IMG/VR virus record: IMGVR_UViG_3300013233_000471
Coordinates: 1-24,755 of that record
Length of the DNA stretch: 24,755 nt
Origin: a virus
Reading direction: 5' to 3' (one strand)
Shown: positions 1,467 through 23,287 of the stretch, one piece after another
Position numbering within the stretch: position 1 is the first letter of the stretch
Layout: each line of letters begins with the position of its first letter
Position numbers and translations under genes: made by a program
The notes under the pieces: generated by a model
The model's database searches: none
What the model was told of the DNA's origin: nothing
The model's input: the letters and a program-made list of their open reading frames with translations, nothing else

Positions 1467-2791
1467 TACGGCTGTGGCACGTATCCGAGTTGCGTCACTG
1501 TACAGATAGCAATCGTGCCACTCCCCGCTGACGTTGAACCATACACTCCGATCTTTCCACCGATGATCGGCACAAATGTTGTGGACGCTATACTGTTAAA
1601 AAGATTTCCATTGTATTGAAATGAGATGCCACCATCGGAAGGAGTGGCATCACTTTTCACACCAAACACTCCAGTCCAACCGTTAGCTCCATAAATCTCG
1701 ACATTGACGATCGCAATGCCTGAACCGGATACCGCATAAGGCGCATCCATGTTGTTGGGGCAGTTACCCGTAAAGATTGTAGAGGGCGCCCACACCCACG
1801 CTGGGTTGGATGCGGCAATAATATCCGCTGCGTGCTGGCCATCTACCGTGTCAGCATCGAAACCACTTCCAGGTCCCTGCGTGACCACGGTGGCACTAAT
1901 TGGGCCTGTCACGTCACCCTGGAGATTGTCGACCGTAGGATTCGGATAAGTACCTCCGAGGTCACCACCTGCCGTACCAGTAGGAACCCGGCTATCACTG
2001 AGTCGGTTGTCATTTCCCTGTACGGCAACATTTGCCGAGGATGAGCCATTAGTGGCCAGCTTGACCGCGCCCGCGACGGACGTGGATGCGTCCGGAACAG
2101 TAAAGTTAAGTTTTCCAGTGGTGTCGTTGTAATCGACGGAGATGTTGCTCTCCGTGTTCGCCCCCACCATAGCTCCAGTCGTATCCTCGCTCGCCTCGGT
2201 CCAGTCACTAATCGCCGTGTGGGACTCCTGCCCCGTATGATTGGCGCGATCCAAGAGGTATGTGGCATCGGAGGTCTGATAGGCAACCTGTGTTACGTCG
2301 GTCTGATTGATTGCAGTCGCTCCAGCCGCAACATAAACCTCGCCGATCTTCACATCTCCGACTGCCACCAACGGCGCCGTTGGGTTGGTCGCCAATGTCC
2401 CTGGAACTACCACATACGTCGCAGGCGGGGCTCCGGTAGCAGCTTGGTAGACATGATGCAGCGCAATTACATCAATCCGATTCAAGGTCGCATCCGATGC
2501 CCCAATGGTCACCACATCGAGCAGGTCGCCTGTCTCCTCGATCCGCACCCCCTCCGGCGTCAACGCAACCGACCGCAGCTCGGTGGTATCAGCCATGAGG
2601 TCCAGTTTCATCGTCACCCCATCCGCCTCGATCCGATAGCCGAGATAGATACCGGGAGCTACCACATCCTTGATATGCGAATTGAGCAGCGCGGTGGAAC
2701 GTGGCGCCTGGTAGTCGAAAATACGGTTCTGCGCCGCTTCCGCCGGAAGTATGGCCACCAACAATGCTGTCAGAAGAATCCAACTCTTCAT
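1466..2791 (-). CDS. Tail fibre protein with apparent N-terminal signal peptide (441 aa)
   Basis: The start ATG 2791 is supported by a CAACAGGGGG Shine-Dalgarno element just upstream; the open frame extends further but that part looks non-coding. Residues 1-21 form a textbook signal peptide: MK, hydrophobic WILLTALLVAILP, then AEA with possible cleavage near AEA/AQ. Residues 22-170 look like a fibre base that binds the baseplate. Residues 183-196 hold ANHTGQESHTAISDW, 265-296 hold a SRVPTGTAGGDLGGTYPNPT segment, and 311-320 hold FDADTVDGQH; all three are typical of phage tail fibres. The Gly/Ser-rich C-terminus (340-441) is the probable receptor-binding tip. No separate chaperone gene follows. 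The gene has visibly lower GC than its neighbours, consistent with host-range exchange. Fibre identity is solid; the purpose of the signal peptide is unknown. Confidence 0.82.
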   Translation of the reverse strand: MKSWILLTALLVAILPAEAAQNRIFDYQAPRSTALLNSHIKDVVAPGIYLGYRIEADGVTMKLDLMADTTELRSVALTPEGVRIEETGDLLDVVTIGASDATLNRIDVIALHHVYQAATGAPPATYVVVPGTLATNPTAPLVAVGDVKIGEVYVAAGATAINQTDVTQVAYQTSDATYLLDRANHTGQESHTAISDWTEASEDTTGAMVGANTESNISVDYNDTTGKLNFTVPDASTSVAGAVKLATNGSSSANVAVQGNDNRLSDSRVPTGTAGGDLGGTYPNPTVDNLQGDVTGPISATVVTQGPGSGFDADTVDGQHAADIIAASNPAWVWAPSTIFTGNCPNNMDAPYAVSGSGIAIVNVEIYGANGWTGVFGVKSDATPSDGGISFQYNGNLFNSIASTTFVPIIGGKIGVYGSTSAGSGTIAICTVTQLGYVPQP

Positions 2792-2799
2792 GGAACTAC

Positions 2800-2860
2800 C
2801 CCCTGTTGTGTGCTCTCGCACGAGTTGAGAAGAAAGCGGCTCGCTCGCCCCATCGCCGCT
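2800..2860 (-). promoter_or_regulatory. CAACAGGGG-type RBS and hairpin before the fibre gene
   Basis: Read on the minus strand, the gap between the gpI-like gene and the fibre holds a short inverted repeat (arms AGCGGC and GCCGCT at 2855-2860 and 2835-2840, 14-base loop containing GGCGAGC) and then CACAACAGGGG at 2810-2800, nine bases before ATG 2791. The same CAACAGGGG string precedes other structural genes here. The hairpin is followed by TTCTTCT, so a weak terminator is also possible. Confidence 0.45.
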
Positions 2861-11263: not shown

Positions 11264-11591
11264 ACGAGTCGCGCCAACGCGCCCACCTCCAAAAGACCGT
11301 CTCCAGCACGGTGGGGTCGGTGAGCTTCTCCAGCGCCAGCGCCTTCGCCCCCTCGTCCGTGGTCTCGAACCATGCATCCGGAGCTTCGTCCACCACGATC
11401 GAGAGGGTGGAGATGTACGCGACCAGGTTGGAGGTGACGGGATCGAGGTCCTCATGCGCAACCCCCGCGCGGAGCTTCGCGTCGAGCACGCCGATGGCGA
11501 TCGTGTCCCGGATGGTGGGGAGGTGGAGCACCACCTTCCCCTCCTCGATGTCCACCTCGGTCGTGGCGCCCGCAAGGATCTGGTGCTCCAT
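11160..11591 (-). CDS. Tail assembly chaperone, short product (143 aa)
   Basis: ATG 11591 overlaps the tube stop (TAATG). Genes between tube and tape measure are almost always tail assembly chaperones, which coat the tape measure during tail assembly and are not in the virion. Residues 1-105 look folded: acidic beta start (ATTEVDIEEGKVVLHLPTIRDTIAIGVLDAKL), then helices ending LEKLTDPTVLETVFWRWARWRD. From residue 112 the frame becomes a Gly-rich, low-complexity tail (GAGGGGGGEGG) that looks like read-through past the frameshift site. The alternative frame from there gives a credible helix, so part of the ribosomes probably change frame near codon 110. Confidence 0.75.
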   Translation of the reverse strand: MEHQILAGATTEVDIEEGKVVLHLPTIRDTIAIGVLDAKLRAGVAHEDLDPVTSNLVAYISTLSIVVDEAPDAWFETTDEGAKALALEKLTDPTVLETVFWRWARWRDSFRGAGGGGGGEGGSDAMASQPVGGESDPGGGTVQ

Positions 11592-12010
11592 TACGCGGCC
11601 CGGACGTTGAGGGCCTCAAACACCACGTTGCGGCCGGCGAAGGCGTTGGCCTGGACGGTGAACGACGAGGATCGGAGGGTGCAGCCCTCATAGGTGCGCA
11701 CCGGCTCCTGTGTCACGTTATCAAGCACCTCGATGTCGATCAGGTTGCGGAAGAGCACATCTTCCCCAAGCGACTCAGCATCGGTGTCCGCGAGGTCGGC
11801 ACGGCGCAGCGCGAACATGGAGAGGGTGATCTGCGCCCCCCACCGCTGGCTCACATGCTCCTGCGGCATGGGCGTGCCAATCACATGGACAGGCTCCACG
11901 CCAGCGTCCTGGTTCATATTGATCGACTGACCGCCACCCACATCCTTACCGGCGATCTTGAGCCGCACCGTATTGCCGGTGTGGACCTGCTGCTGAACGA
12001 TGCTCGCCAT
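11591..12010 (-). CDS. Tail tube protein (139 aa)
   Basis: The gene lies directly after the sheath gene and before the chaperone, the standard position for the contractile tail tube. The sequence (TGNTVRLKIAGKDVGGGQSINMNQDAGVEPVHVIGTPMPQEHVSQRWGAQITLSMFALRR, then LIDIEVLDNVTQEPVRTYEGCTLRSSSFTVQANAFAGRNVVFEAL) is beta-rich with the alternation seen in XkdM-like or small tube proteins. Length of about 140 aa fits. ATG 12010 is preceded by CACAACAGGGG and a hairpin, suggesting a strong initiation site, as expected for a protein made in many copies. Confidence 0.88.
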   Translation of the reverse strand: MASIVQQQVHTGNTVRLKIAGKDVGGGQSINMNQDAGVEPVHVIGTPMPQEHVSQRWGAQITLSMFALRRADLADTDAESLGEDVLFRNLIDIEVLDNVTQEPVRTYEGCTLRSSSFTVQANAFAGRNVVFEALNVRAA

Positions 12011-12016
12011 CTCATG

Positions 12017-12046
12017 CCCCTGTTGTGTCCCGGCGGAAAGCGCCGG
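12017..12046 (-). promoter_or_regulatory. Intergenic hairpin plus CAACAGGGG RBS before the tube gene
   Basis: Six bases after the sheath stop, the minus strand has a perfect six-base-pair stem (CCGGCG at 12046-12041, loop CTTTC, CGCCGG at 12035-12030), followed by CACAACAGGGG at 12027-12017 and ATG at 12010. The same layout occurs at 14267-14302. There is no U-tract, so a terminator is unlikely; a transcript-stabilising or initiation-enhancing role is inferred. Confidence 0.5.
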
Positions 12047-12052
12047 CCATGG

Positions 12053-13822
12053 TTATCGCGCCACGATCTTGGTCGGCTCCAGGTTCGCGGTCACGGTGAT
12101 GTAGTCCACCTCGCCGACCGGATGGCACAGGAAGGTGATCGACACGAGGTCGATCCCATCGAACACCGCGGTCACGTCGTCAAAGGCGGGGATGGTGTTG
12201 CCGGCGGCGTCCGCCCCCTCCGTCAAGACACCGCTCTGGTTCTGTGCCGATCGAGTGAGCTTGCGAAGCCGGGTCACGACAGCATTGAGGATCGAGGTGA
12301 CCGTGGAGCGGTCTCCCACCGACCCCACGAAGCCGTCCACCGCGTCGCGCATCTCCTGGTCGAGGTACTGACCGATCCGCGCCCCCTGGATCTTCGAGTA
12401 GATCACGTTGTCGTCGCTGATCCAGGTCGTCAGGCCGGCCACGACCCGGTGGACACCACGGTCCTGGAAGTAGCGGGAATGGGAGATGCCGTGGCGGAGC
12501 AGGTCGTTGCTCTCCGAGAGCGTCAGGTCCTTCTCCATCCCCTCCACTCGGAGCGTCTTCCACGTGATCGGCTCCTCCGGAGGCATCCCCGCAGCCAGAC
12601 CGCAGAGCAGCGCGGCGTGATAGACCGGGCTCAGGGTGTCGAGGCTGCCAGTCATCAGGTTGCGCCGCTGCACCCCGGGGTAGGCCAGCACGGCGATCTT
12701 CGAGGCCAGCGCCTGCCCTCGGCTGATCGCCTGCGCCGGCGTCTCCCCGGCCGCGCCCCCGCAGAACAACATCCGCGGCTTGCGTTCGGTGACCGAACTC
12801 ATGGTCTCCACGTGCGAGAGCGCCATCTGGTGTACCGCCGCGTCAGAGGATCCGGGCAAGAGGAAGTTGATATGGACCGTGCTGAAGGCGTCGATCGCCG
12901 TCTGCCAGTCAGCCACCGCTGGGACCCCGCCATTGGTGCCCCCGGTCAGCGCCTGATAGTCCTGGTCCAGCGGCGCGTCGACCATGACCCCGATCCGCGT
13001 CGCAGTGACGAACTGCGACTCCTGATCCATCCAGTGGATGATGGACTCCAGAGCCGCCTGCGCCGCGTAGGGGGCGGTCTTCACATCCTGCGCCGCCACG
13101 AGGTCCAGCCCCGTGGTGGGCAGAAGAGCATCCCCATCGGCGGTGCAGGTGTAGACCGTCTGGCCATTGATATGGTCCACGAGGGTCTGGAGGGTAGGGA
13201 ACTGCGTCAGGTCAATGGAGAGGTCGTCTGTCGGCAAACCTGCCGTCGCCGTGGTCGTCAGCGTCGTGGCCGCGCCTACCGCCCCCGCGATGTCCATGGT
13301 GCAGGCGGATCCGGTGCCGGTGTACTGGATCGTGAAGGCCGGCCCCAGGTCGTCCCCCGTCTCGATCTGGTTGGTGTCCTGGTTGCGAATGAGGATCTTC
13401 TTGCCCGCTGCCGTCCCCGGTGCCACCGCCACTGAGAGGAGGTTGGTCCAGTCTCCATAGTCGCGAGCAGTGATCGTCAGCTTCGCGTCGAGGGTCGCCA
13501 CGGCCTGCACCGCTGGAGCCGCTGCGCTATTGTTGTCGACCCGGTACGCCTCCACCCGCTGCGGCCCCGCTGAGTCAGGACCCGCCGAGAACATCAGCTC
13601 GATGAGATCGAGCAGAGTCCCTCCGCGCAGCACGCTCCGCGCCTCCACCGGGCTGGTGAAGGAGAGCACCGTGCGCGGCTCGCCGCCACTCGCCTCCCCA
13701 ATCACCCCCACCGTGTTCTGCGCGCCCGGACGGTTGGGCACCATGGAGGCCGCGTTGATCTTGGCGTAGGCGCCTGGCTGGACGATCCCGCGCCCGTTGA
13801 AGTAGATCCCTCGTAGTGCCAT
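12053..13822 (-). CDS. Tail sheath protein (589 aa)
   Basis: The start ATG 13822 follows GGGAGAGTGAG. The N-terminus FNGRGIVQPGAYAKINAASMVPNRPGAQNTVGVIGEASGGEP, then IELMFSAGPDSAGPQRVEAYRVDN, and the C-terminus VVAGLTTWISDDNVIYSKIQGARIGQYLDQEMRDAVDGFVGSVGDRSTVTSILNAVV carry the conserved sheath handshake and core regions that contract on infection. The middle (130-290) is a beta-rich insertion of low-complexity Thr/Ala sequence, and 589 aa is longer than many sheath proteins of 380-490 aa, so extra outer domains are likely. The tube gene follows immediately. Confidence 0.9.
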   Translation of the reverse strand: MALRGIYFNGRGIVQPGAYAKINAASMVPNRPGAQNTVGVIGEASGGEPRTVLSFTSPVEARSVLRGGTLLDLIELMFSAGPDSAGPQRVEAYRVDNNSAAAPAVQAVATLDAKLTITARDYGDWTNLLSVAVAPGTAAGKKILIRNQDTNQIETGDDLGPAFTIQYTGTGSACTMDIAGAVGAATTLTTTATAGLPTDDLSIDLTQFPTLQTLVDHINGQTVYTCTADGDALLPTTGLDLVAAQDVKTAPYAAQAALESIIHWMDQESQFVTATRIGVMVDAPLDQDYQALTGGTNGGVPAVADWQTAIDAFSTVHINFLLPGSSDAAVHQMALSHVETMSSVTERKPRMLFCGGAAGETPAQAISRGQALASKIAVLAYPGVQRRNLMTGSLDTLSPVYHAALLCGLAAGMPPEEPITWKTLRVEGMEKDLTLSESNDLLRHGISHSRYFQDRGVHRVVAGLTTWISDDNVIYSKIQGARIGQYLDQEMRDAVDGFVGSVGDRSTVTSILNAVVTRLRKLTRSAQNQSGVLTEGADAAGNTIPAFDDVTAVFDGIDLVSITFLCHPVGEVDYITVTANLEPTKIVAR

Positions 13823-13834
13823 CTCACTCTCCCG

Positions 13835-14044
13835 TTAGCGGACCACCGGGCGGGCCGCCACGGCCGCCGCGATCTGATCCCAATCCGTCGTTGTGTGTGC
13901 CTCGTTGGCGTAGCTCTGCATGGCCGCGGCCAGGAGCGGCGAGGCATGGCTCGTCAGCGCCCACGTCGCCAACGACAGCACCGGGGCGGCAGGCCCCTCC
14001 GCGACCTTCTCCTCAACCGGATCGACTGTCCTTTTGCGCGCCAT
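13835..14044 (-). CDS. Small protein before the sheath gene (69 aa), unknown function
   Basis: ATG 14044 is chosen because AGGAG lies five bases upstream; an earlier ATG overlaps the preceding gene's end without a ribosome site. The protein starts MARKRTVDPVEE and has a helical centre VLSLATWALTSHASPLLAAAMQSYA, then TTDWDQIAAAVAARPV. Similar-sized proteins often sit before sheath genes in contractile phages and may take part in tail initiation, but I recognise no defined family. Confidence 0.72.
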   Translation of the reverse strand: MARKRTVDPVEEKVAEGPAAPVLSLATWALTSHASPLLAAAMQSYANEAHTTTDWDQIAAAVAARPVVR

Positions 14045-14052
14045 GTCTGCTC

Positions 14053-14259
14053 CTAGATTTGCACCCACTCGGTCCACGAAATGATGTCGCCATTCGCGTC
14101 CTTGGTGTACGTCTTTTTATAGCTGAGCCCGTCAAAGAAAGACTGCGTGTGCACCTCGGTTACCGAGTCCGGAAAGGTGATGGTCGTCGCCCCATGCTCC
14201 TCATCCAGAGCGGTGTTGAGGAGGTACGTGTCGGAGGTTAAAACCGCCGGAATCGCCAT
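14053..14259 (-). CDS. Small YD-like beta protein (68 aa)
   Basis: ATG 14259 is preceded by AACAGGGG. The last 30 residues read FFDGLSYKKTYTKDANGDIISWTEWVQI, closely matching the end of the 69-aa product at 18038-18247 (FWDGNTYRKTYSYDAAANLT...). The pattern Y.K.Y..DA.G.I resembles one YD/RHS beta-hairpin repeat. The N-terminal part ends with a short beta-like TTITFPDSVTEVHTQSF. It is probably a minor virion or accessory protein; no function can be named. It lies between the tail-terminator candidate and the sheath. Confidence 0.7.
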   Translation of the reverse strand: MAIPAVLTSDTYLLNTALDEEHGATTITFPDSVTEVHTQSFFDGLSYKKTYTKDANGDIISWTEWVQI

Positions 14260-14266
14260 CCGCTGT

Positions 14267-14302
14267 CCCCTGTTGATTTCCGGCGGCTCGCCAAAGCGCC
14301 GG
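14267..14302 (-). promoter_or_regulatory. Intergenic hairpin with conserved loop plus CAACAGGGG RBS
   Basis: Five bases after the 294-aa gene's stop, the minus strand has arms CCGGCG (14302-14297) and CGCCGG (14285-14280) enclosing CTTTGGCGAGC, then CAACAGGGG (14275-14267) before ATG 14259. The 12-mer GCTCGCCAAAGC (plus strand 14286-14297) recurs at 21699-21710 and 22556-22567, each time between inverted arms of different sequence. No U-tract follows. Confidence 0.5.
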
Positions 14303-14307
14303 CCCTG

Positions 14308-15192
14308 CTACTGCAATGAACAACCCCCGTATACCACATCCGAGATGGGTGGCGCAGCCCCACCCGTGAGCTGGCCCGCCACGGTTCCCGAGAGGTGGTG
14401 GGTGGTGAAGTAGACCGGCGAGTCGAAGGCGACGTGATCCTCGCCATCGGCATTCCCGATCCCAATCTCGTCCACCCCAAGCTCCATGAACAGGGGCAGC
14501 ATCTCCATCAGCGACCCCTTGATCGCCACCCGCAAGCCATCCCGCTCCCGCGGGTTGGTGGTCCAGCCGATCACCGCGTAGGTGTGGCGGTAGTAGATCG
14601 CGCTCACATCCTCTCCGGATCCCGGCGTGTTGCCCACGTTCCCCACGAGGTGATGCACATCCTGGTCCTGGTCGAGATGGACGGACACCATGGGCAGCTC
14701 GCTCGCCTCCAATGGAAAGGCGCCCCGCACCTCCACCGCATCCCCCGCCGGCAACACCAGATCACCACTGGCCACCCGAGCCGCCAGGGCGGCGCGGAGC
14801 CGATCCACGAGCACCGTCTTGAGGTCCAGCTCGTCGTAGCTCGCGGCCGGAACCGGCGGCACCGGGCCGGCGATCCCGCCCGGGCTCCACGTCCCCGCCA
14901 CATCGTCGTAGAAGTAGACCGCGTAGTAGGCGTCGCTCGCCGAGGGGGCGAGGTCGAGCGCGTACCGCACCGCCGCCGGCGTCGCGGTGACCGCGTCGCC
15001 ACCCGTCGACGACCACCGCAGGTGGCTCTGGCCGCCGTCGTAGCCCGCCCCGTCGTAGACCTGGACCGCCCCGGGGTCATCGTAGCCCGAGAAGATCCCG
15101 GTGCCGTTACGCAGCACCCGGACGCGCCCGGTCCAGCCGGACCAGGAGGCCCGGATGGCGCCACTGACGGGGGTGATGGATAGATCGTTCAT
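14308..15192 (-). CDS. Tail terminator / tail completion-like protein with FN3-like N-terminus (294 aa)
   Basis: ATG 15192 is the start. Residues 5-120 are beta-rich (ITPVSGAIRASWSGWTGRVRVLRNGTGIFSG..DPGAVQVYDGAGYDG) and resemble a fibronectin-III-type fold. Residues 118-294 (YDELDLKTVLVDRLRAALAARV... then AVEVRGAFPLEASELPMVSVHLDQDQDVHHLVGN ... YRHTYAVIGWTTNPRERDGLRVAIKGSLMEMLPLF) follow the alpha/beta layout of tail terminator proteins that stop tail polymerisation and bind the neck. The position upstream of the sheath supports this. The N-terminal extension is unusual; these proteins are commonly about 130-180 aa. Confidence 0.6.
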   Translation of the reverse strand: MNDLSITPVSGAIRASWSGWTGRVRVLRNGTGIFSGYDDPGAVQVYDGAGYDGGQSHLRWSSTGGDAVTATPAAVRYALDLAPSASDAYYAVYFYDDVAGTWSPGGIAGPVPPVPAASYDELDLKTVLVDRLRAALAARVASGDLVLPAGDAVEVRGAFPLEASELPMVSVHLDQDQDVHHLVGNVGNTPGSGEDVSAIYYRHTYAVIGWTTNPRERDGLRVAIKGSLMEMLPLFMELGVDEIGIGNADGEDHVAFDSPVYFTTHHLSGTVAGQLTGGAAPPISDVVYGGCSLQ

Positions 15193-15196
15193 GGTG

Positions 15197-15295
15197 CTAT
15201 CGAGTCAACGCGACGCGGTCATTGCCGGCCACGTCTTTGACGAGGGAGCCGCCGTTGCCGGTCAGTGCTTTTGCTGCTGCGGAAAGAAGTCCCAT
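15197..15295 (-). CDS. Possible small protein (32 aa)
   Basis: An ATG at 15295 with GAGGG seven bases upstream opens 32 codons that end at TAG 15197, two bases from the next gene's start. The product begins MGLLSAAAKALTGNGGSLV and ends DRVALTR. The first residues are amphipathic and faintly like the start of some phage holins and membrane-active peptides, but there is no transmembrane segment. The good ribosome site and tight spacing support real translation; no family is assigned. Confidence 0.45.
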   Translation of the reverse strand: MGLLSAAAKALTGNGGSLVKDVAGNDRVALTR

Positions 15296-15298
15296 CGG

Positions 15299-15340
15299 TC
15301 AACCCTCTGGCGCGGAGAAGATGGTGGAGAAGAGGCTCAT
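15299..15340 (-). CDS. Possible micro-ORF (13 aa)
   Basis: The ATG at 15340 overlaps the stop of the 807-aa gene (TAATG) and reads MSLFSTIFSAPEG to a TGA at 15299, four bases before the next small start. The overlap geometry is the same as at many real gene junctions in this operon. It could be a translational relay that carries ribosomes to the 32-aa ORF. Chance cannot be excluded at this length. Confidence 0.25.
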   Translation of the reverse strand: MSLFSTIFSAPEG

Positions 15341-17763
15341 TACCGAACACGCAGCGGGAAGAGGAACAACGTCCCTGGATACACCGGGTCGATGAGATCC
15401 ACCGGAGCCCGCTCGCCCTTCACATAGTAGATGGGCTCGACTGCGCCTCTTGTAGGGAGTGTCCCTTGTGGACTCGCCTTCCCGTAGAAATCCGTGGTCG
15501 GGTGGACGGATAGGGCTACACCATCTTGGTAGTGTCCGTTCTCCGGGCGGGGCATGAAGAGGTCATTGGCGGCGTCTACCCAAGTCGGGTCTGCCGTCCA
15601 TTCCGTCCCGCCAGCGGTGATCCCCGTTACCGCATTGAGCCCATTGTTGGTATGCGTCAGCGCTCCGGTGTTCGTGACTGTGACGGTATCCAGGATGCAG
15701 TTTTGCACATCCAACACGCCGGCATTGTCAAGGACCACATCGCTTCCCGTGCCCGAATACAAGGTAGAGTTGTAGAGCTTGGCGGCCGTTGCGTCTGCGT
15801 CACACTCCAGCTTTCCGGCAGCCGTCTGGAACTCACTATAGGCCACGATGTTCCCGGCGCCAGAAAGCACGGCTTTCTTGGTAGATTGGTTCAGCCGTGT
15901 GAATGTCCCGCTCGTGCTCGCCAGCTTCACCGCAGGAGGCTGCGACGAGTCACTGTTGATCGCCACCTTCACGTCGTCCCAGTAGGCAACTTGAAGATCG
16001 TTGGAGTTAAAGATCCATCGGACATCGGTCATGGCCCCTGTAACCGGGATGCCGACGACGTGCATCAGTACCGCGTCGTCTTGCCATACGGTAACCGAGC
16101 CCTGGGTCGCGTGGTAGGTAAACCGCAGCTTGAGGTGTGTCCAGGTCTGTAGTGGGAAGGCCACAGCGTCATCAGGGTGCTGCTTGTAGGTATTGGTATT
16201 CGCCTGGAAAGACAGATACCCATCGCTGCCGACATACAGATGGATATCCGCCCCGCCCGGACCAAGCCGGAGAATGTGTGTGTTATTGGCGGGCTTCGTG
16301 GCTTTGTCGTAGTAGAACCACCCCTCGACGTCCACCACGTCTCCAGACACGAGCCCGGACAACGCGCCCATCTGCTTCATGTAGGCGTAGGCATTGCCGG
16401 AGCCACCCGTCAGATCGAGCTTGGCGGATTGCGTCCCGGCATGGGCCTTCAAAGCCGACGCCTGGTCGATCACCACGCCTGTTGAAATCTGCTCGGTGAA
16501 GGTCCCGCCAGCTCCTTCGAAGTCTTCGCTGACAAGGGGCGCAGTAAGATCCTCTCCTTGCATCTCCATGCCGTTGAAGTCGATGGCTGTGATCTCCTTC
16601 ACCAAGATGGGCGAAGTCTGCACGGACTCAAACCGGACAGAGCTTGAGTCATCGAGTGGCTGGTAATCCTGATAGCTTGCCCACGGGGTATCGACTCCAT
16701 CCGCCGTGTAGTCTGTGCCCGAATCTGCAACCCGGAATACCGTAGAGTCCGGGTAGAGGCGCCACTTATACAGCTCGTTGTCTGGCGTATGGACCCCGTA
16801 GAAGTAACCGTCATCCCCGCTGTTGTAGTAACTGACCTTAGCGAAACGGTGGGACCATTGATAATCCGTCCCCACGACGGATGCCTTGCTCGACCACGAA
16901 GTCCCATCGAATACGGCGAGGTTCGCTTCCGTGCAACCGTCCTTGCCGTAACAGAAAAAGACGCCCCCACCCGACTCTCCGCTCATTCGAGCGAAGCCAG
17001 CATCGGCCTGTGCAGCGACTCCAAAGGTAACCGTGGGGTCCATCACAGCAGAGGGTGTTGATGCAATCACATCCGCCAGGGTTGCCGTCGAGGCAAGGAC
17101 GACCTTGTAGATTTTCCGATCCCCGCTGGAGTCTGCCGCATAGTAGATCGCGTCAGCCGTGGGTACGATGGCTGTAGCCTGCGCAGAGGCCGTCCAGGAG
17201 CTAAACGTCGCCCCATGGTCATCAGAGACCTGGATTTTCGACAGAGCGCCGTCGTCTCCATGGGTCACGTACAGCAGCTTGCGGTACGGGTCCCAAACGG
17301 GCATGTGAACATGATCGTGAGGGACGACCGCCAAGTTCCCTACAATGTCCGTCCACGTTGCTCCACCGTCTGTGCTCTTCAGGAGCAAGGGAGCCGATGG
17401 ATAGCCGTTCGCGTACAGATTGCCGAGATCATCCTCCGCAAAAGCAAAGGCATAGTCGGTCGAAACGGAATAGGTATAGACCGCGCTCCAGGTAACGCCA
17501 TCATCTGTGGAGCGCCAGAGCTTCCCGCCAGAGGCCAGCGTCACAAACACGTAGCCTCGTGAGTCCACGAACATGGAGTTCACGTCAGCGGAAGAGAGCG
17601 CGGCGCCGCCGTTACCGTCGGACCACGCACCGTTGCTGAACACCTTGATCGTTCCGGTAATCGTGGCCGCCACCAGCTTATCAGACCACCCCACGGCGAG
17701 CTGTGCGCTGACGCGGTGCGGCTCCCCCACCACATCCTGCGAATGCTTGTAGAGCCAAGTCAT
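15340..17763 (-). CDS. Large modular adhesin-like virion protein: BNR propeller, LamG-like, beta-helix (807 aa)
   Basis: ATG 17763 is preceded by AGGGGG at five bases. Residues 20-340 look like a beta-propeller with Asp-box (BNR) motifs STDDGVTW (85-92), STDGGATW (130-137) and the degenerate SDDHGATF (180-187). Residues 411-602 (EDFEGAGG.F, then LKAHAGTQSAKLDLTG, VEGWFYYDKA, WTHLKLRF) match a concanavalin/LamG-like carbohydrate-binding jelly roll. Residues 640-780 show short beta repeats (DVVLDNAGVLDVQNCILDTVTVTNT) and end TTDFYGKASPQG...RGAVEPI, the typical end of a right-handed beta-helix. Such modules suggest binding or trimming of surface glycans. Catalysis is not shown: Asp boxes are structural, and I saw no certain sialidase triad. 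The location among neck genes is unusual for a receptor-binding protein. Confidence 0.75.
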   Translation of the reverse strand: MTWLYKHSQDVVGEPHRVSAQLAVGWSDKLVAATITGTIKVFSNGAWSDGNGGAALSSADVNSMFVDSRGYVFVTLASGGKLWRSTDDGVTWSAVYTYSVSTDYAFAFAEDDLGNLYANGYPSAPLLLKSTDGGATWTDIVGNLAVVPHDHVHMPVWDPYRKLLYVTHGDDGALSKIQVSDDHGATFSSWTASAQATAIVPTADAIYYAADSSGDRKIYKVVLASTATLADVIASTPSAVMDPTVTFGVAAQADAGFARMSGESGGGVFFCYGKDGCTEANLAVFDGTSWSSKASVVGTDYQWSHRFAKVSYYNSGDDGYFYGVHTPDNELYKWRLYPDSTVFRVADSGTDYTADGVDTPWASYQDYQPLDDSSSVRFESVQTSPILVKEITAIDFNGMEMQGEDLTAPLVSEDFEGAGGTFTEQISTGVVIDQASALKAHAGTQSAKLDLTGGSGNAYAYMKQMGALSGLVSGDVVDVEGWFYYDKATKPANNTHILRLGPGGADIHLYVGSDGYLSFQANTNTYKQHPDDAVAFPLQTWTHLKLRFTYHATQGSVTVWQDDAVLMHVVGIPVTGAMTDVRWIFNSNDLQVAYWDDVKVAINSDSSQPPAVKLASTSGTFTRLNQSTKKAVLSGAGNIVAYSEFQTAAGKLECDADATAAKLYNSTLYSGTGSDVVLDNAGVLDVQNCILDTVTVTNTGALTHTNNGLNAVTGITAGGTEWTADPTWVDAANDLFMPRPENGHYQDGVALSVHPTTDFYGKASPQGTLPTRGAVEPIYYVKGERAPVDLIDPVYPGTLFLFPLRVR

Positions 17764-17773
17764 GGCGACCCCC

Positions 17774-18025
17774 TTAGAGCTTCGTGGGAAGCGTAGTCCC
17801 GGTGAGGTTGCCGCCCGTGTAGGTGTACGTCACCTTCCACGAGTCCACGCCGTCGGTCTTGGTAAGGGTGGCAATGGTCCCATCCCCGTTGTAGGTCGCC
17901 CCCGAGATGGCCATGCCGTCCCAGTTGATCACCCCACCACTCGCGTCGACGGTGACGGCCTTCGCCTGGATCGGCTTGTTCTTGAGGAGCGAGTAAATCT
18001 GCCGCAACTGCATCATCATGCTCAT
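17774..18025 (-). CDS. Small YD-like beta protein (83 aa)
   Basis: ATG 18025 has AAGGGAG seven bases upstream. A short Met-rich helix (MSMMMQLRQIYSLLKNKPI) precedes a beta-rich part with AISGATYNGDGTIATLTKTDG and VDSWKVTYTYTGGNLTGTT. The Y.YTGGNLT segment resembles the YD-like hairpin of the two related small genes at 18038 and 14053 but is more distant. It sits directly before the 807-aa adhesin-like gene and may connect or chaperone it, which is inference from order only. Confidence 0.68.
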   Translation of the reverse strand: MSMMMQLRQIYSLLKNKPIQAKAVTVDASGGVINWDGMAISGATYNGDGTIATLTKTDGVDSWKVTYTYTGGNLTGTTLPTKL

Positions 18026-18037
18026 TGGTCCGCTCCC

Positions 18038-18247
18038 TTAGTTGATACGCTGCCACGTCGTCTCGTCCGTGAGATTTGCGGCGGCGTCGTAGCTGTACGT
18101 TTTACGGTAGGTATTCCCGTCCCAAAACCGCTGATCCGATTGTGTCAGGTTATCGTTGGCGTCGTAGGTGTAGGACATGATGCCCAACCCCTTCGCGAGC
18201 CACTCCTGCATCTCCACGTCACTCATGGTGTCGAAATCCACTGCCAT
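18038..18247 (-). CDS. Small YD-repeat-like protein (69 aa)
   Basis: ATG 18247 overlaps the previous stop (TAATG) and has GGAGG five bases upstream, which decides it over an ATG four codons earlier. After an acidic helix (VDFDTMSDVEMQEWLAKGL), the protein has two YD/RHS-like units: SYTYDANDNLTQ and KTYSYDAAANLTDE. These match the 'Y.YDa.GnLt' consensus of RHS/YD repeats that form beta-hairpins. The end, FWDGNTYRKTY...W, parallels the 68-aa gene at 14053-14259. In phage genomes such tiny units are probably structural; function unknown. Confidence 0.72.
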   Translation of the reverse strand: MAVDFDTMSDVEMQEWLAKGLGIMSYTYDANDNLTQSDQRFWDGNTYRKTYSYDAAANLTDETTWQRIN

Positions 18248-18921
18248 TACCGCCTCCAAAGCTCCATGAGACGCGCCTGTACGCGCCGGCAGAGGGGCTC
18301 ACCGCCCTCCTGCGACCGGTCCACGGCGAGGTCTCGGTACACGTAGTAGGTGGGGTGTACGCGGTAGCGAACCGTGTACCGATCCCCATCCGCGATCGGG
18401 TTCCCGATCCACTGAATCGTGGCGCCCACGAGGGTGTAGTCGACGCCACTGGTGAACTCCTGGAAGAGCCCACCCACGATTGCACCAAGGGTGGTGATAC
18501 TCACCACCTGATCCTGCGGGAGGGTGTCCTGCGTCCCCTTGGTCAGGACCGCATGTAGCTCCACCTCCCCGTCGGTCAACACGAAGCGGTCCCGCTCGGC
18601 CGCCGTGTAGGCCGGGTTGGCGGACCATGCTCCAGCCGCGTCCCGGACCTGCGCCGGAAGGGTGAGGGCGAGGTCGCCTTGCTCCACCTCGCCGTACTGC
18701 TGGTACTTCTTCGAGGTGGCCATGTTGGTGGCCCCGATGGTGAGCGGCCCTACCTCGGCCTCATGGAAGTAGCCACGCCCCATGCATAGCGGGCAGGCCG
18801 GGTCGGCCGCGTCGTAGCTGCCGCCCCGGCACGGGCACTTCACCGCGGGCGCGTACATCACCCGCCGGCCCAGGTCGGCAATCAGAATCTCGAAATCGTG
18901 GGCGGGGAGGGGGAGGGCCAT
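18247..18921 (-). CDS. Neck / head-closure candidate with Cys-rich motif (224 aa)
   Basis: ATG 18921 overlaps the upstream stop by one base (TGATG). Residues 29-46 hold CPC..G........CPLCMGRG, a DnaJ-like zinc-binding arrangement (Cys 29, 31, 43, 46). The rest is beta-rich: VGPLTIGATNMATSKKYQQYGEVEQGDLALTLPA, DRFVLTDGEVELHAVLTKG, then FTSGVDYTLVGATIQWI...DRYTVRYRVHPTYYVYRD. A beta-barrel of this sort after a connector gene fits a head-closure (stopper) protein. The identity is based on order and fold character, not a firm family match. Confidence 0.62.
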   Translation of the reverse strand: MALPLPAHDFEILIADLGRRVMYAPAVKCPCRGGSYDAADPACPLCMGRGYFHEAEVGPLTIGATNMATSKKYQQYGEVEQGDLALTLPAQVRDAAGAWSANPAYTAAERDRFVLTDGEVELHAVLTKGTQDTLPQDQVVSITTLGAIVGGLFQEFTSGVDYTLVGATIQWIGNPIADGDRYTVRYRVHPTYYVYRDLAVDRSQEGGEPLCRRVQARLMELWRR

Positions 18922-19709
18922 CAGATCACCGCGAGGCGCACGCCGCTGAACTTCTGCTTGAGGTGGGTGAGGATCTCCTGCTCCTCGGCCGCAATGGAGG
19001 CGATCTCACCGGCATACCGGCCACCCTGCGTCGAGGTGACGTAGCTCTGCGACTTGCTGTGTCCATCCACCGACACTGACTCGGAGCTGACCCCTGCCCC
19101 CTTGGCACCCTGGATCGCGGTTAGGATCTTGATCGCGGCCCGCTTGCGGATCCCCTCCCGGATCCCCGGGTATTCGGCCAGCATGGCCGGGGTGAAGCCG
19201 GCCCGGTAGTCGATATGGAAGGAGTGAGGGAGCGAGCCGCCGGACGAGAAGAGGGCAAGGAGCGCGCCCGAGAAGCTCCCGAAGAAGGCGAGCTGATCGG
19301 GCACCAGGCGCAACCAGCCGAACGCCGGCTCCAGCCGCACCCAGGTCAGGGGGACGTTGAAAGTACCCTGGTCTTTCGTGGGGTAGACGAGCTGGATCTT
19401 CTCCACCTTCGTGACCGGCTTGTGGCGAAGCTGGATCGCCCCCCACGTCTCCGCCAAGAACATGTCCTTCTGGTAGTCGTAGGCGGGGTCCATGAGATCG
19501 TAGGTCTCGCCCGGGTCCGGGTCGGAGACGACGAGCTGGTTCTCCTTGAGCACCACCCCCAGGAAATTGCCGTAGTACCCCTCGGCCTCCTCGATGAAGG
19601 AGTCCTGCACCGGGTCCGGGAGGGCAACGCCGTTGCCGTCCGTCAGGTCCACGCCCCACAGGACGTGCTCCCGGACCTCTTGCGAGGTGATGCCGAGGGC
19701 AGAAGCCAT
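18921..19709 (-). CDS. Head-tail connector (adaptor)-like protein (262 aa)
   Basis: The start ATG 19709 abuts the stop of the preceding gene (TAGATG). The protein begins with a short helix-turn segment (ALGITSQEVREHVLWGVDL, then PDPVQDSFIEEAEGYYGNFLG), a pattern of adaptor proteins that form a ring below the portal. A beta-rich middle (100-165) is followed by HIDYRAGFTPAMLAEYPGIREGIRKRAAIKILTAIQ, which resembles the C-terminal helical part of connector proteins, and then a Ser/Gly-rich stretch and a final helix. Position after the capsid module supports a neck role. Confidence in the exact family is moderate. Confidence 0.62.
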   Translation of the reverse strand: MASALGITSQEVREHVLWGVDLTDGNGVALPDPVQDSFIEEAEGYYGNFLGVVLKENQLVVSDPDPGETYDLMDPAYDYQKDMFLAETWGAIQLRHKPVTKVEKIQLVYPTKDQGTFNVPLTWVRLEPAFGWLRLVPDQLAFFGSFSGALLALFSSGGSLPHSFHIDYRAGFTPAMLAEYPGIREGIRKRAAIKILTAIQGAKGAGVSSESVSVDGHSKSQSYVTSTQGGRYAGEIASIAAEEQEILTHLKQKFSGVRLAVI

Positions 19710-20057
19710 CTACGCCTGGAGCCTCTCGATGATCTCCGCCTTGGTGCCCCGCACCGCCACGCCACGGTCAGCGGCGAGCTTGCGGAGGTCCTCGACGGTC
19801 AGGGTGTCGAGGGCGACCTCTTCGTTCCCCGCACCATCACCACCATCCTCGGGGGTGTCCTGGGGAGCGGTGTCCTGGGGAATGGCCGGCCCCGCATCGA
19901 CAAAGCCGTCGATACTCAGGAGCCGTGCCGCCACCGCGTCGTCCACGTCGTCGGCCCGGTAGCCGCCGGCGACCGGCTGAAAGACCGTGGTGTCGATGAA
20001 CATGGGGGGCGCGCCCTTGGGGGGCTCACCGCCGCCCCGAAACAGAATGTTGGCCAT
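19710..20057 (-). CDS. Small head-module protein with SAP/HeH-like C-terminus (115 aa)
   Basis: ATG 20057 (MANILF) is preferred over ATG 20069 because GGAGG lies five bases before it. The N-terminus ILFRGGGEPPKGAPPMFIDTTVFQPVAGGYRADDVDDAVAARLLSIDGFV looks like a short conserved phage domain. An acidic, Pro/Gly/Asp-rich linker (PQDTAPQDTPEDGGDGAG) follows. The C-terminal 32 residues, LTVEDLRKLAADRGVAVRGTKAEIIERL, match the SAP/HeH/Rho-N helix-extended loop-helix type, which often binds nucleic acid. Proteins of this size after the capsid gene are common, but the role is unknown. Confidence 0.72.
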   Translation of the reverse strand: MANILFRGGGEPPKGAPPMFIDTTVFQPVAGGYRADDVDDAVAARLLSIDGFVDAGPAIPQDTAPQDTPEDGGDGAGNEEVALDTLTVEDLRKLAADRGVAVRGTKAEIIERLQA

Positions 20058-20080
20058 CTCATCCTCCATTGGGGGTTAGC

Positions 20081-20108
20081 GAGGGCGCCCCTATTGCGGG
20101 GCGCCCTC
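20081..20108 (-). other. Perfect 11-bp GC hairpin after the capsid gene
   Basis: The inverted repeat GAGGGCGCCCC / GGGGCGCCCTC (20108-20098 and 20091-20081 on the minus strand, loop GCAATA) lies between the capsid stop and the next gene. No U-tract follows, so it is not a classic intrinsic terminator. It may protect the capsid mRNA 3' end, pause polymerase or partly terminate. Confidence 0.6.
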
Positions 20109-20128
20109 AGAGTTGTCAGTCCTCCGGC

Positions 20129-21610
20129 CTAGAACGGAGACCACTGCGCCGCTGCGCGGCTCGGCAGGATGTTCTTAATCATGTAGTGCTGCTTCGCCTT
20201 GGTGACCCGGAGGTACCCGAAGAGGAGCTGCGCCCACGGGGTCTCGACCTTGTTGGTCGGGAAGAGGGGGAACTTGCTCATGGGGAGAAGCTGGCGCCAG
20301 CCGATCGCCTGATCGCCGGGGGCCATGTTCAGCACGAAGCCGGAGGAGGTGCCGGGAATCCGGCTATTGGTGTCGACGAAGGTGGTGCCCCCCGCGCCGG
20401 CGGAAGCGACCCGCCCAATGAGGCGGTAGTCGGAGGCGGCGGGCTGCGCGCCCATGTTCCGCCGCGACCGGTAGATCGCGTAACCGGAAGCCAGGGGCGA
20501 GTCGGCAATGGTGAGGGTCACGATGTCGCCCGCGGTCACCGTCGCCGCCGCCGGGGTCGTTTCCGTGCCCACAGCACCCGCCACGACCGAGGTGGAGCCG
20601 CCCTTTCGGGAGATCGCCTCGACCCGGTACCAGTAGGTGCCGGCATGGCCAGCCCCGAACTTGGAGGTGGCGTCGGCCGCCACCGCAAAGCCCATCTGCG
20701 CCGGCGGGGCCGGATCGGAGGCGGAGGCCAGGGCCGGGTAGCGCACCTCGAAGGGGGCCGGGGACTCGGTCAGGAACACGTCGGGGCAGGTCTCGATGTT
20801 GCCCCAGGTGGTCCGGATGCCGGCGACCGGTGCGCCCTTCTGGATCGTGGCCGGGTTGTTGTCCAGGTTGACCCGGTAGGCACTGTTGAGGCCGATGTCG
20901 AGATCCGCCTGCGCGAGGGGCGACAGGAACAGGTCGGTCGGCGTGCCGTAGTTGGGGGCCGCCGCGATCCGCGATGCCGCCTCAATGACCTCGGCAACAT
21001 CGGGCGAGAAGCTGGCCCCCGCGAGGTCGATCACGTTGCCGGTGGCAGCGACGATCTTCTCCAGACCGTCGTACTCCTCCGGGATCACCGCGGAGTCGCC
21101 CTCGAAGAACAGGTACTCGGCCGTGGAGAGCAGCTCCTTGGCCCCTGCTTCCGCCTCGATCGCCATCGCGTCGACGATGTTGCTGGCCTGCTGCTGCACG
21201 TAGCTCACGGCCCGGCGGGTCATCAGGTACTTGACCTGCGCCACGCGGCGCGCATACTCACCCGTCGCCGTCTGGAGGTCCCCCAGCTCAGAGTTGACGG
21301 CTCCACCTACGAAGCCACCCACACCCGACTGCTCGACCCACTCGTCGACCGTGGCGTTCGCCTGGTTCTTCTTGAGCTTGTTGAACAAGCGGAAATGCTT
21401 GTTCTGCTGCACCGTCGCCATCAGAGTCGCTTCAAGCGACTCGACGCGCATGGCGCCACCACCCTGAAGGGTGGCGAGGTCCGTACCGTAGCCAGCGGTC
21501 AAAGCCTTGCGGAGGTCCTCCATGCCGATCTGGCCGGAGCCCGCGAAGGAGCTGCCGTAAGGGTTGGCGCCGTTGGCAAACAGCGCGCCCGGATCAAATG
21601 CCCCGTTCAT
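20129..21610 (-). CDS. Major capsid protein with FN3-like insertion (493 aa)
   Basis: ATG 21610 has AGGGAG upstream. Residues 30-62 contain LRKALTAGYGTDLATLQGGGAMRVESLEATL, the characteristic N-terminal region of myovirus HK97-fold capsids, and QQNKHFRLFNKLKKNQA...VDEWVEQSG continues it. Residues 115-290 fit the HK97-fold core (RRVAQVKYLMTRRAVSYVQQQASNIVDAMAIEAEAGAKELLSTAEYLFFEGD). Residues about 303-418 (GTYWYRVEAISRKGGSTSVVAG....YAIYRSRRN.....YRLIGRV) form an Ig/FN3-like insertion, followed by a core C-terminus. The protein builds the icosahedral shell; the N-terminal segment may be removed by the protease encoded upstream. Hairpins lie on both sides of the gene. Confidence 0.88.
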   Translation of the reverse strand: MNGAFDPGALFANGANPYGSSFAGSGQIGMEDLRKALTAGYGTDLATLQGGGAMRVESLEATLMATVQQNKHFRLFNKLKKNQANATVDEWVEQSGVGGFVGGAVNSELGDLQTATGEYARRVAQVKYLMTRRAVSYVQQQASNIVDAMAIEAEAGAKELLSTAEYLFFEGDSAVIPEEYDGLEKIVAATGNVIDLAGASFSPDVAEVIEAASRIAAAPNYGTPTDLFLSPLAQADLDIGLNSAYRVNLDNNPATIQKGAPVAGIRTTWGNIETCPDVFLTESPAPFEVRYPALASASDPAPPAQMGFAVAADATSKFGAGHAGTYWYRVEAISRKGGSTSVVAGAVGTETTPAAATVTAGDIVTLTIADSPLASGYAIYRSRRNMGAQPAASDYRLIGRVASAGAGGTTFVDTNSRIPGTSSGFVLNMAPGDQAIGWRQLLPMSKFPLFPTNKVETPWAQLLFGYLRVTKAKQHYMIKNILPSRAAAQWSPF

Positions 21611-21665
21611 ACCTGCTCTCCCTGTTGCATGTTTGGGGGAGCGGAGCTACGATCGTCGCAGCCAT
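21594..21665 (-). CDS. Possible 23-aa leader peptide overlapping the capsid start
   Basis: An ATG at 21665, five bases after CACAACAGGGG, opens a 23-codon frame that starts MAATIVAPLPQTC and ends with TGA at 21594, inside the first codons of the capsid gene in another frame. An ATG-TGA pair lies just before it. The overlap suits translational coupling or ribosome delivery to the capsid start. It is too short for family recognition; it could also be chance. Confidence 0.3.
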   Translation of the reverse strand: MAATIVAPLPQTCNRESRYERGI

Positions 21666-21670
21666 CACAT

Positions 21671-21724
21671 CCCCTGTTGTGGCTATGGGGCGCGGGGTGC
21701 TCGCCAAAGCCTTCCCCGCGCCCC
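21671..21724 (-). promoter_or_regulatory. Intergenic hairpin with conserved loop plus CAACAGGGG, capsid leader
   Basis: Arms GGGGCGCGGGG (minus strand 21724-21714) and CCCCGCGCCCC (21697-21687) form a perfect 11-bp stem around a loop containing GCTTTGGCGAGC, followed by CACAACAGGGG (21681-21671). The loop 12-mer is identical to that at 14286-14297. No U-tract follows. Shortly before the capsid ATG a second CAACAGGG occurs (21627-21620). The element is placed to control or protect capsid mRNA. Confidence 0.55.
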
Positions 21725-21738
21725 TCCTGGTGCATCTC

Positions 21739-22446
21739 CTACAGACCGACCGCCTTGCAGAGGGTGGCCGGAACCGGCATCCCGAGGTTCTTCATCGAGT
21801 CAATCTGACTCAGGACATGGGCGTCCAGCTCGCCGGCCGCGACCTTGGCGTTGGCCTTGGCCAACACCTCCTCGTAGTTCGCCGGTTCCGGCTCACCACT
21901 CGGGGTCGTCGCCTTGTGCAGCACCCCAAGGATCGACTTCCGGGGCTCGGGCTGGTTGCCGATCGCCCCCAGCGTCTCACCCATCGACTTGGCCAAGGTG
22001 AGGCTCGACTTCATCGCGCCGGCCAGCGACTTCACCATCCCGGCAAGCACCTCGTTGGCCCGCTGCGACTTAACCAGGGTGGCCTTGATCTGGTCGATCT
22101 CGTCGCCCACGCGCATGAGGATCGGCGCCGCGTCGACCATGACCTCGTCGCCCTCGTCGCCGAAGCTCTTGGCGAAGCCTTCGTCGCCGAGATCGTTGAG
22201 ATCGTCGAGCCCCGCCGGATCGTCGTCGACGGTCCCGAAGTCGCCGTCGTCATCGAGACGCAGCGCCTTGGCGAAGTCGGTGTCCTGGATCTTCTCCAGC
22301 TCGTCGAGGGCACCCGCCACCCCGTCGATCACCTCGTCGTCGGTCATCGACTTGGCCAGCGCACTGCCGCACTTGGCGCAGTACCCCATACCATCCTGAT
22401 CCTCGTACTCCGCCCCGCACTTCTCGTTCCCGCACTTCCGCTTCAT
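21739..22446 (-). CDS. Zinc-ribbon acidic protein in the scaffold position (235 aa)
   Basis: ATG 22446 follows the protease stop by one base (TGACATG), with GGGGG upstream. Residues 5-26 are a zinc ribbon (C5, C10, C23, C26: KCGNEKCG...GYCAKCG). Residues 65-100 are very acidic (DDDGDFGTVDDDP..). Residues 105-160 form a coiled helix (VGDEIDQIKATLVKSQRANEVLAGMVKSLAGAMKSS). The tail has a short conserved-looking helix pair. Short AKS-type motifs recur: AKSM 31-34, FAKA 58-61, FAKS 91-94, LAKS 151-154. A helical, acidic protein between protease and capsid suggests an internal scaffold degraded or cut during maturation; this is inferred. A minor capsid or inner-core role is possible. Confidence 0.6.
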   Translation of the reverse strand: MKRKCGNEKCGAEYEDQDGMGYCAKCGSALAKSMTDDEVIDGVAGALDELEKIQDTDFAKALRLDDDGDFGTVDDDPAGLDDLNDLGDEGFAKSFGDEGDEVMVDAAPILMRVGDEIDQIKATLVKSQRANEVLAGMVKSLAGAMKSSLTLAKSMGETLGAIGNQPEPRKSILGVLHKATTPSGEPEPANYEEVLAKANAKVAAGELDAHVLSQIDSMKNLGMPVPATLCKAVGL

Positions 22447-22447
22447 G

Positions 22448-23287
22448 TCACACCCCCTGTAGGTGGTTGGTGAGGAAGCGACGGACCGCCCCCTCGCTGT
22501 ATCCGAGGCGCCGGAAGTAGCGGCGAATGACCGTCTTCCGTGACTCGTTTCCGCGGCTCGCCAAAGCCTCGCGGAGATCCTTTTTGACCTTCCCGTCCAA
22601 CGACTCCTCACGCATCGCACCACCCCCGGTGAGGGTGGCGGTGTCGGTGCCATACCCCGCCGTGAGGGTCTTGCAGCACAGCGCCTCTCCCACCTCTCCG
22701 GGGCTCATCACGCCGCCGGCAAAGCTCTTGCTCAGCCCCCCGATAGGGTTGAGCTGCGCCGGCTGGAGGTGGATGTTCACCGGGGTACGGGAGAGGCCGA
22801 TGTTGCTCCACCGCACCTTTTCGATCTGGCGCCGCTCTTCACCGCCCACCATCACGGGACGGCGCGCCAGCACCGCCCCCCCAATGGAGGGGTACCAGGT
22901 GGCCGGCGGGGCCTGCTTCGTCAGGGAGTCCCAAAAGAAGTTGGCCATCTGCGCCGACGCGCCCTCGCCGGAGTAAATCTCCGCCTTCACGAAGGTCCGG
23001 TGCTTCCCCACCGCCACCTCGACCGGCTTCCCGATCTCGTACTCGTAGGCGTTCTCCAGGTGGAGCTGATCCGCGAGGAGCGTCTTGTGGTCGAGGTCGA
23101 TGTTTCCGAACCGGAGGAAGTAGTCCTTGCTCTCCTCCAAGGCCCGCTGGAACACGCGCTCGTTCTGCATGTCCCAGGCATCCGAGCTGGCCTCCAAAAA
23201 GAGGTACCGATGCCCGCCCTGTACCTCGGCCTTCACGGCGAGGTCCCAGGGGACCGAAATAACCGGGGCTTCGATGATTGCAGGCAT
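22448..23287 (-). CDS. Prohead protease-like protein (279 aa)
   Basis: An in-frame TAG lies five codons upstream, so ATG 23287 or a later codon is the start. ATG 23287 directly follows the terminator U-tract and has no Shine-Dalgarno site; GTG at codon 18 also lacks one. The region RYLFLEASSDAWDMQNERVFQRALEES, then GNIDLDHKTLL (H67) and ATWYPSIGGAVLARRPV (S134), then VRWSNIGLSRTPVN, matches XkdF-like prohead proteases; H67 and S134 are candidate catalytic residues. Residues 208-230 repeat a capsid N-terminal motif (LTAGYGTD..TL.GGGAMR.ESL). The last 40 residues are basic (KTVIRRYFRRLGYSEGAVRRFL). It probably cleaves scaffold and capsid during head maturation. Confidence 0.75.
   Translation of the reverse strand: MPAIIEAPVISVPWDLAVKAEVQGGHRYLFLEASSDAWDMQNERVFQRALEESKDYFLRFGNIDLDHKTLLADQLHLENAYEYEIGKPVEVAVGKHRTFVKAEIYSGEGASAQMANFFWDSLTKQAPPATWYPSIGGAVLARRPVMVGGEERRQIEKVRWSNIGLSRTPVNIHLQPAQLNPIGGLSKSFAGGVMSPGEVGEALCCKTLTAGYGTDTATLTGGGAMREESLDGKVKKDLREALASRGNESRKTVIRRYFRRLGYSEGAVRRFLTNHLQGV

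Follow-up and report, generated by a model that had tools for sequence, protein, structure and literature searches.

A tailed phage must make widely differing quantities of its structural proteins from a single late transcript, and to our knowledge how these quantities are set is largely unknown except in model phages. A stem-loop upstream of the Shine-Dalgarno (SD) sequence in the phage T7 gene 10 mRNA raised reporter output 1.5-3-fold and stabilized the mRNA (PMC6146998), and structured standby sites can shift the rate of initiation more than 100-fold (PMC3936740). The gp43 operators of phages T4 and RB69 have the top 10 bases in common and differ in hairpin length (PMC3014915). Another structured RNA of phage leaders, int-alpA (RF02996), is a known, orphan, and unexplained family.

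The locus compared with these systems is a whole IMG/VR virus record of 24,755 bases (the window) from an uncultured contractile-tailed phage, with all identified genes on the minus strand. Its distant kin are Bordetella phage PHB04, Aeromonas ST4, Pseudomonas Touem01, and Thermus Cumys/Lalka (38-45% identity in the major capsid protein, MCP). The genes relevant to the analysis are:

22448-23287, minus strand: protease (phrog_1028), family match
21739-22446, minus strand: gene after the protease, without a family match
20129-21610, minus strand: MCP (phrog_752), family match
12053-13822, minus strand: sheath (phrog_279), family match
11591-12010, minus strand: tail tube (phrog_985), family match, start at 12010
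1466-2791, minus strand: fibre-like gene, weak matches to virion proteins, start at 2791

A GAGGGCGCCCC/GGGGCGCCCTC hairpin lies 3' of the MCP stop (window 20076-20103), a position at which most of the reference relatives checked have a strong hairpin. Three small minus-strand ORFs that resemble each other in their YD-like wording (e.g., SYTYDANDNL and KKTYTKDANGDI) at 14053-14259, 17774-18025, and 18036-18243 are possibly related small structural proteins.

The original prediction described a 12-mer occurring three times between arms that differ yet stay complementary, and both parts were recovered: GCTCGCCAAAGC is present on the plus strand at 14286-14297, 21699-21710, and 22556-22567, corresponding to GCTTTGGCGAGC on the coding minus strand, with arms of 6, 11, and 6 bp in a loose Watson-Crick scan. 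Of the two 12-mers with at least three minus-strand copies, GCTTTGGCGAGC alone had arms of at least 5 bp at every copy, while a triple 12-mer with paired arms was obtained in 0/300 dinucleotide shuffles. The shuffled-sequence check proposed with the prediction thereby excluded chance for the 12-mer with arms as a repeat, but not for its copy within a coding sequence. As to the covariation claimed for the arms, four outer stem pairs were changed on both sides (matched by 17/500 shuffles; slid controls gave 1-2), but this alignment, which comprises only three sequences and places the 14286 copy out of register, is weak evidence alone. The 12-mer is conserved as claimed but is not the plain fixed loop envisaged, since in folding it self-pairs as GCUU-UGGC-GAGC, a 4-bp apical stem capped by a UGGC tetraloop. 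The folded element has an outer stem that varies, an internal loop or bulge, and an apical mini-hairpin that is fixed. Fold stability z-scores were -3.7 (21699 copy), 0.07 (14286), -1.05 (12030), and -1.09 (22556), such that only the 21699 copy is an exceptionally stable hairpin. The hairpins and the associated RBS motifs are:

22550-22574, minus strand: hairpin with the third exact 12-mer copy, within the protease gene near its end
21687-21724, minus strand: capsid leader hairpin, 11-bp outer stem GGGGCGCGGGG/CCCCGCGCCCC with apical GCUUUGGCGAGC, -31.9 kcal/mol, z -3.7
21671-21679, minus strand: CAACAGGGG of the capsid leader ORF, Shine-Dalgarno-like
21619-21627, minus strand: CAACAGGGA, near-copy of the RBS motif before the MCP
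21594-21665, minus strand: 23-aa leader ORF (MAATIVAPLPQTCNRESRYERGI), overlapping the MCP start
14280-14303, minus strand: YD-like leader hairpin, CCGGCG/CGCCGG around the 12-mer, upstream of a 68-aa ORF
14267-14275, minus strand: CAACAGGGG of the YD-like ORF, start at 14259
12030-12046, minus strand: hairpin deletion variant in the sheath-tube gap, CCGGCG-CUUUC-CGCCGG
12017-12025, minus strand: CAACAGGGG of the tail-tube gene, start at 12010
2835-2860, minus strand: weak hairpin relative in the fibre-like leader, AGCGGC/GCCGCU, core GATGGGGCGAGC
2800-2808, minus strand: CAACAGGGG of the fibre-like gene, start at 2791

A hairpin after a stop codon, followed by CAACAGGGG and a start, had been predicted for four leaders and was present in all of them (fibre-like, tail-tube, YD-like, and capsid-leader ORFs). 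The four exact CAACAGGGG copies in the window, all on the minus strand, compare with 0.15 expected (maximum of three in 300 shuffles), and each follows a hairpin and lies 5-8 nt 5' of a start codon. Three leaders have the order stop, 4-14 nt, hairpin, 4-7 nt (4, 4, and 7 nt), CAACAGGGG, 5-7 nt, start, a placement like that of the T7 gene 10 stem-loop, and in the fibre leader the distance from hairpin to CAACAGGGG is 26 nt. Among the 27 start contexts listed, the ACAGGG type was confined to the leader ORF, MCP, YD-like, tube, and fibre genes and the gene starting at 22446, and the sheath, tape measure, and baseplate genes carry no hairpin element. The AGGGG is often partly paired in silico (unpaired probability 0.20-0.66) and the element could consequently repress rather than enhance. 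The CAACAGGGGA sequence resembles the ACARGGA of CsrA/Rsm sites, yet GGA is missing from two of the four copies and this candidate was rejected.

The hairpins begin 4-22 nt past the upstream stop, as would be expected of a 3'-end or decay barrier protecting the upstream cistron in the manner of REP elements, or of a pause or attenuation site, but their tie to the specific downstream RBS motif CAACAGGGG and the lack of a U-tract make this reading quite unlikely. The sequence 3' of the hairpins is GACACAACAGGGG, AAATCAACAGGGG, or ATAGCCACAACAGGGG, with no U-tract after any leader hairpin, and intrinsic terminators were excluded because no poly-U follows these GC-rich hairpins. Inverted repeats can also serve as sites in DNA, e.g., for an operator, recombination, or packaging; however, the orientation is constant, with the leader copies always on the sense strand before the RBS, and the arms are variable, leaving a DNA-level role highly improbable.

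The individual leaders differ in detail. The CAACAGGGG following the capsid leader hairpin was found as claimed; it serves the 23-aa ORF, whose overlap with the MCP start makes translational coupling a possibility, and the MCP has its own CAACAGGGA. In the YD-like leader, the ORF start (UUCCGGCGGUU) provides a second complement for the 3' arm (AGCCGCCGGAA), and the full-leader fold (14237-14300, minus strand) prefers this arm-to-ORF-start pairing, an alternative fold over the RBS, so that the modeled leader could be a switch between two pairings of its 3' arm. The deletion variant reported in the sheath-tube gap is real, with GGCCGGCGCTTT-CCGCCGG at 12030-12046 against GGCCGGCGCTTT-GGCGAG-CCGCCGG at 14286, and lacks 6 of the 12 apex bases. 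The weaker relative at 2835-2860 was also verified, having three mismatches to the 12-mer within a 14-nt loop, and a second small hairpin of GNRA type (GUGC-GAGA-GCAC) lies between it and CAACAGGGG. The exact apex is thus present in two leaders only, alongside the deletion in the tube leader and the weak relative in the fibre leader. The third exact copy falls within protease coding sequence, as the original prediction stated, approximately 86 nt 5' of CUACAGGGG, the RBS of the next gene (start at 22446), and may be a coding coincidence.

The 12030 and 14286 leaders have GGCCGGCGCTTT..CCGCCGG and CAACAGGGG in common, from which one was probably copied from the other, and the hairpins could accordingly be functionless relics of a recent duplication of a leader segment. 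This is an improbable account of the element, as the 11-bp stem of the 21699 copy differs entirely in sequence and still pairs, and neutral decay would not preserve such pairing.

The main rival to a leader hairpin acting on its own transcript is a protein operator, in which a phage- or host-encoded RNA-binding protein would read the fixed apex and repress or coordinate the cistrons. The apex is invariant on exchanged stems, which generic stabilizing hairpins would not require, the internal bulge and apical mini-hairpin resemble protein sites, and the gp43-type arrangement of a fixed apex on a variable stem near the RBS is present, albeit in two leaders and one coding copy only. Nevertheless, no candidate RNA-binding protein was identified for what is a predicted site, 6 of the 12 apex bases are gone from the tube leader, and one common regulator would be needed for several targets; an operator is therefore considered possible but doubtful.

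About 150 related loci were collected by alignment-based MCP and sheath searches. The MCP or tube alone as a tblastn query gave no relatives, and the alignments reached relatives of which none was close (best identity to any of about 53% for the MCP and 47% for the sheath), such that the evidence for covariation comes from three copies within a single contig. The hairpin sequence was private to the window contig and found in none of the related loci; the window apex with arms was absent from 2.8 Mb of these loci at 0-1 mismatch, and with two mismatches the 12-mer with arms gave 39 matches vs. 10-27 for shuffled cores, a modest excess that may reflect composition. Exact CTTTGGCGAG-N-CAACAGGGG had two matches in IMG/VR, apparently in ORFs on unrelated contigs, phage and plasmid sequences queried by BLAST with the leaders gave weak partial matches only, and no Rfam 15 family reached its gathering score in the window. 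Lax Rfam matches to mir-598, RNaseP-T, mir-967, and snoU82P were dismissed as chance. The hairpin element is, judged by these sequence searches, lineage-specific. Loss of both loop and pairing from related phages had been named as grounds for refuting the element, and here the outcome was divided, with the apex absent and a hairpin absent from most, rather than all, relatives. The sheath-tube gap is 8-20 nt in most relatives, and long gaps (38-104 nt) holding a hairpin occurred in the window and in loci L004, L095, and L142, where the 51-nt gaps of L004 and L095 have hairpins unrelated to that of the window.

A further intergenic motif recurs in the relatives and is absent from the window gaps. 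For GTCGTGACG, 100 of the 193 plus-strand copies lie in gaps that make up 7.8% of the sequence, compared with 0/20 for the reversed motif, and its consensus runs to CATG. The conserved intergenic GTCGTGACGNCANNATNNNNNCATG was present in 59/120 related loci (e.g., L008:4949, 10345, 16885, and 20171), often 3' of a terminator hairpin and 5' of structural genes. The GTCGTGACG/GTCGTGACGNCANNATNNNNNCATG motif is a candidate late promoter or regulator site.

A known RNA was identified at the corresponding positions in locus L142, a phage contig with clear phage genes in a Nitrospirales MAG (a label that may be a binning artefact) and the related locus with the top summed tblastn score (1595, with 1440 for the partial L069/L095 contig). 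L142 repeats the element CUAGGCUGAUCACCRAA with different stems before the MCP and before the tube. Matches to int-alpA (RF02996) or a close variant are:

L142:4789-4869 and L142:12441-12516: int-alpA or close variant
L162:1488-1566: int-alpA or close variant
L171-L250: int-alpA or close variant

In an Rfam cmscan, the L142 MCP copy matched int-alpA at 34.4 bits, slightly below the gathering cut-off of 35.8 bits. The 17-mer was present in 98 contigs of an IMG/VR scan and int-alpA matches were obtained in 7/8 of the 17-mer contigs scanned with Rfam, five having copies above the cut-off (36.9-46.5 bits); in L229 it is a copy with a different inner hairpin that passes, the one with the 17-mer reaching 34.9. 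RNAalifold pairs of the P1 stem were changed on both sides in 7/7 cases among 31 copies, from which an own int-alpA-type model (R1) was built. Searching 96 loci of the phage group with R1 gave exactly two copies, both in L142, at 45.4 bits ahead of the MCP and 29.7 bits ahead of the tube. A genome search with RF02996 did not return L142, a miss of the prefilter given that cmscan and R1 both detect it. Thus, two of the positions occupied by hairpins in the window hold int-alpA or a close variant in L142. The window element itself is not int-alpA RNA: R1 without filters gave nothing significant in the window (best 9 bits, off the hairpins), and RF02996 was absent at gathering and by genome search, with no match at E<=5 in the tested stretches.

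Elsewhere, the int-alpA type precedes HNH, endonuclease VII, NUMOD3, KilA-N, BRO, and capsid-E-like genes, and it is apparently a portable phage gene leader beyond the int/alpA neighbourhood alone. It has a variable second hairpin and, seen by eye, an apparent loop-downstream pseudoknot. The L142 core is not read as a hammerhead, the catalytic core being incomplete.

A cis-acting mRNA element is favoured by the placement after a stop and before an RBS, the fixed apex with exchanged stems, and the known RNA that a relative has at two of these positions, and the gene starts concerned appear to be genuine sites of RNA control. The original proposal of a translation element, an mRNA-stability element, or a protein site is partly supported: an mRNA element is favoured, but one of its copies is coding and its three roles are indistinguishable from sequence. 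The preferred reading, given about even odds (probability roughly 0.5), is a lineage-specific cis-acting leader hairpin of late phage mRNA that sets the translation or stability of structural cistrons. In this model a GC-rich hairpin with the fixed GCUU-UGGC-GAGC apex would stand 4-7 nt upstream of the extended RBS CAACAGGGG, parted from it by an A-rich single-stranded spacer. Within a long polycistronic transcript it would most likely insulate the RBS against the cistron upstream, and most likely mark or protect an mRNA 5' end or decay boundary, such that capsid, tube, and small structural proteins could be made independently of the upstream gene and probably in larger amounts. We infer the transcription of the leader hairpins, their action in cis, and the direction of their effect. 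A broader and unlikely conjecture is that the MCP and tube leaders are sockets for exchangeable RNA regulators, with int-alpA in one lineage and the GCUUUGGCGAGC hairpin in another, each lineage setting its capsid/tail stoichiometry with its own regulator. The hairpin-RBS module and int-alpA before a relative's MCP and tube would give two concrete, testable leader elements.

Compared with known systems, the element resembles REP/BOX-type intergenic hairpins as repeated inverted repeats between genes but differs in its few window copies, with the apex alone conserved and tied to an RBS motif. Like int-alpA, which in L142 precedes the MCP and tube, it is a putative structured RNA of phage leaders whose stems are freely exchanged around a fixed core, whereas the window lacks the CUAGGCUGAUCACCRAA core, the second hairpin, and the apparent pseudoknot. 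The T4/RB69 gp43 operators are similar leader hairpins with an identical apex and stems of different length, although a single autoregulated gene is involved there and several cistrons here. The T7 gene 10 leader likewise has a hairpin closely upstream of the strong RBS of a major capsid gene, while the window element has a fixed apex and is repeated before several genes.
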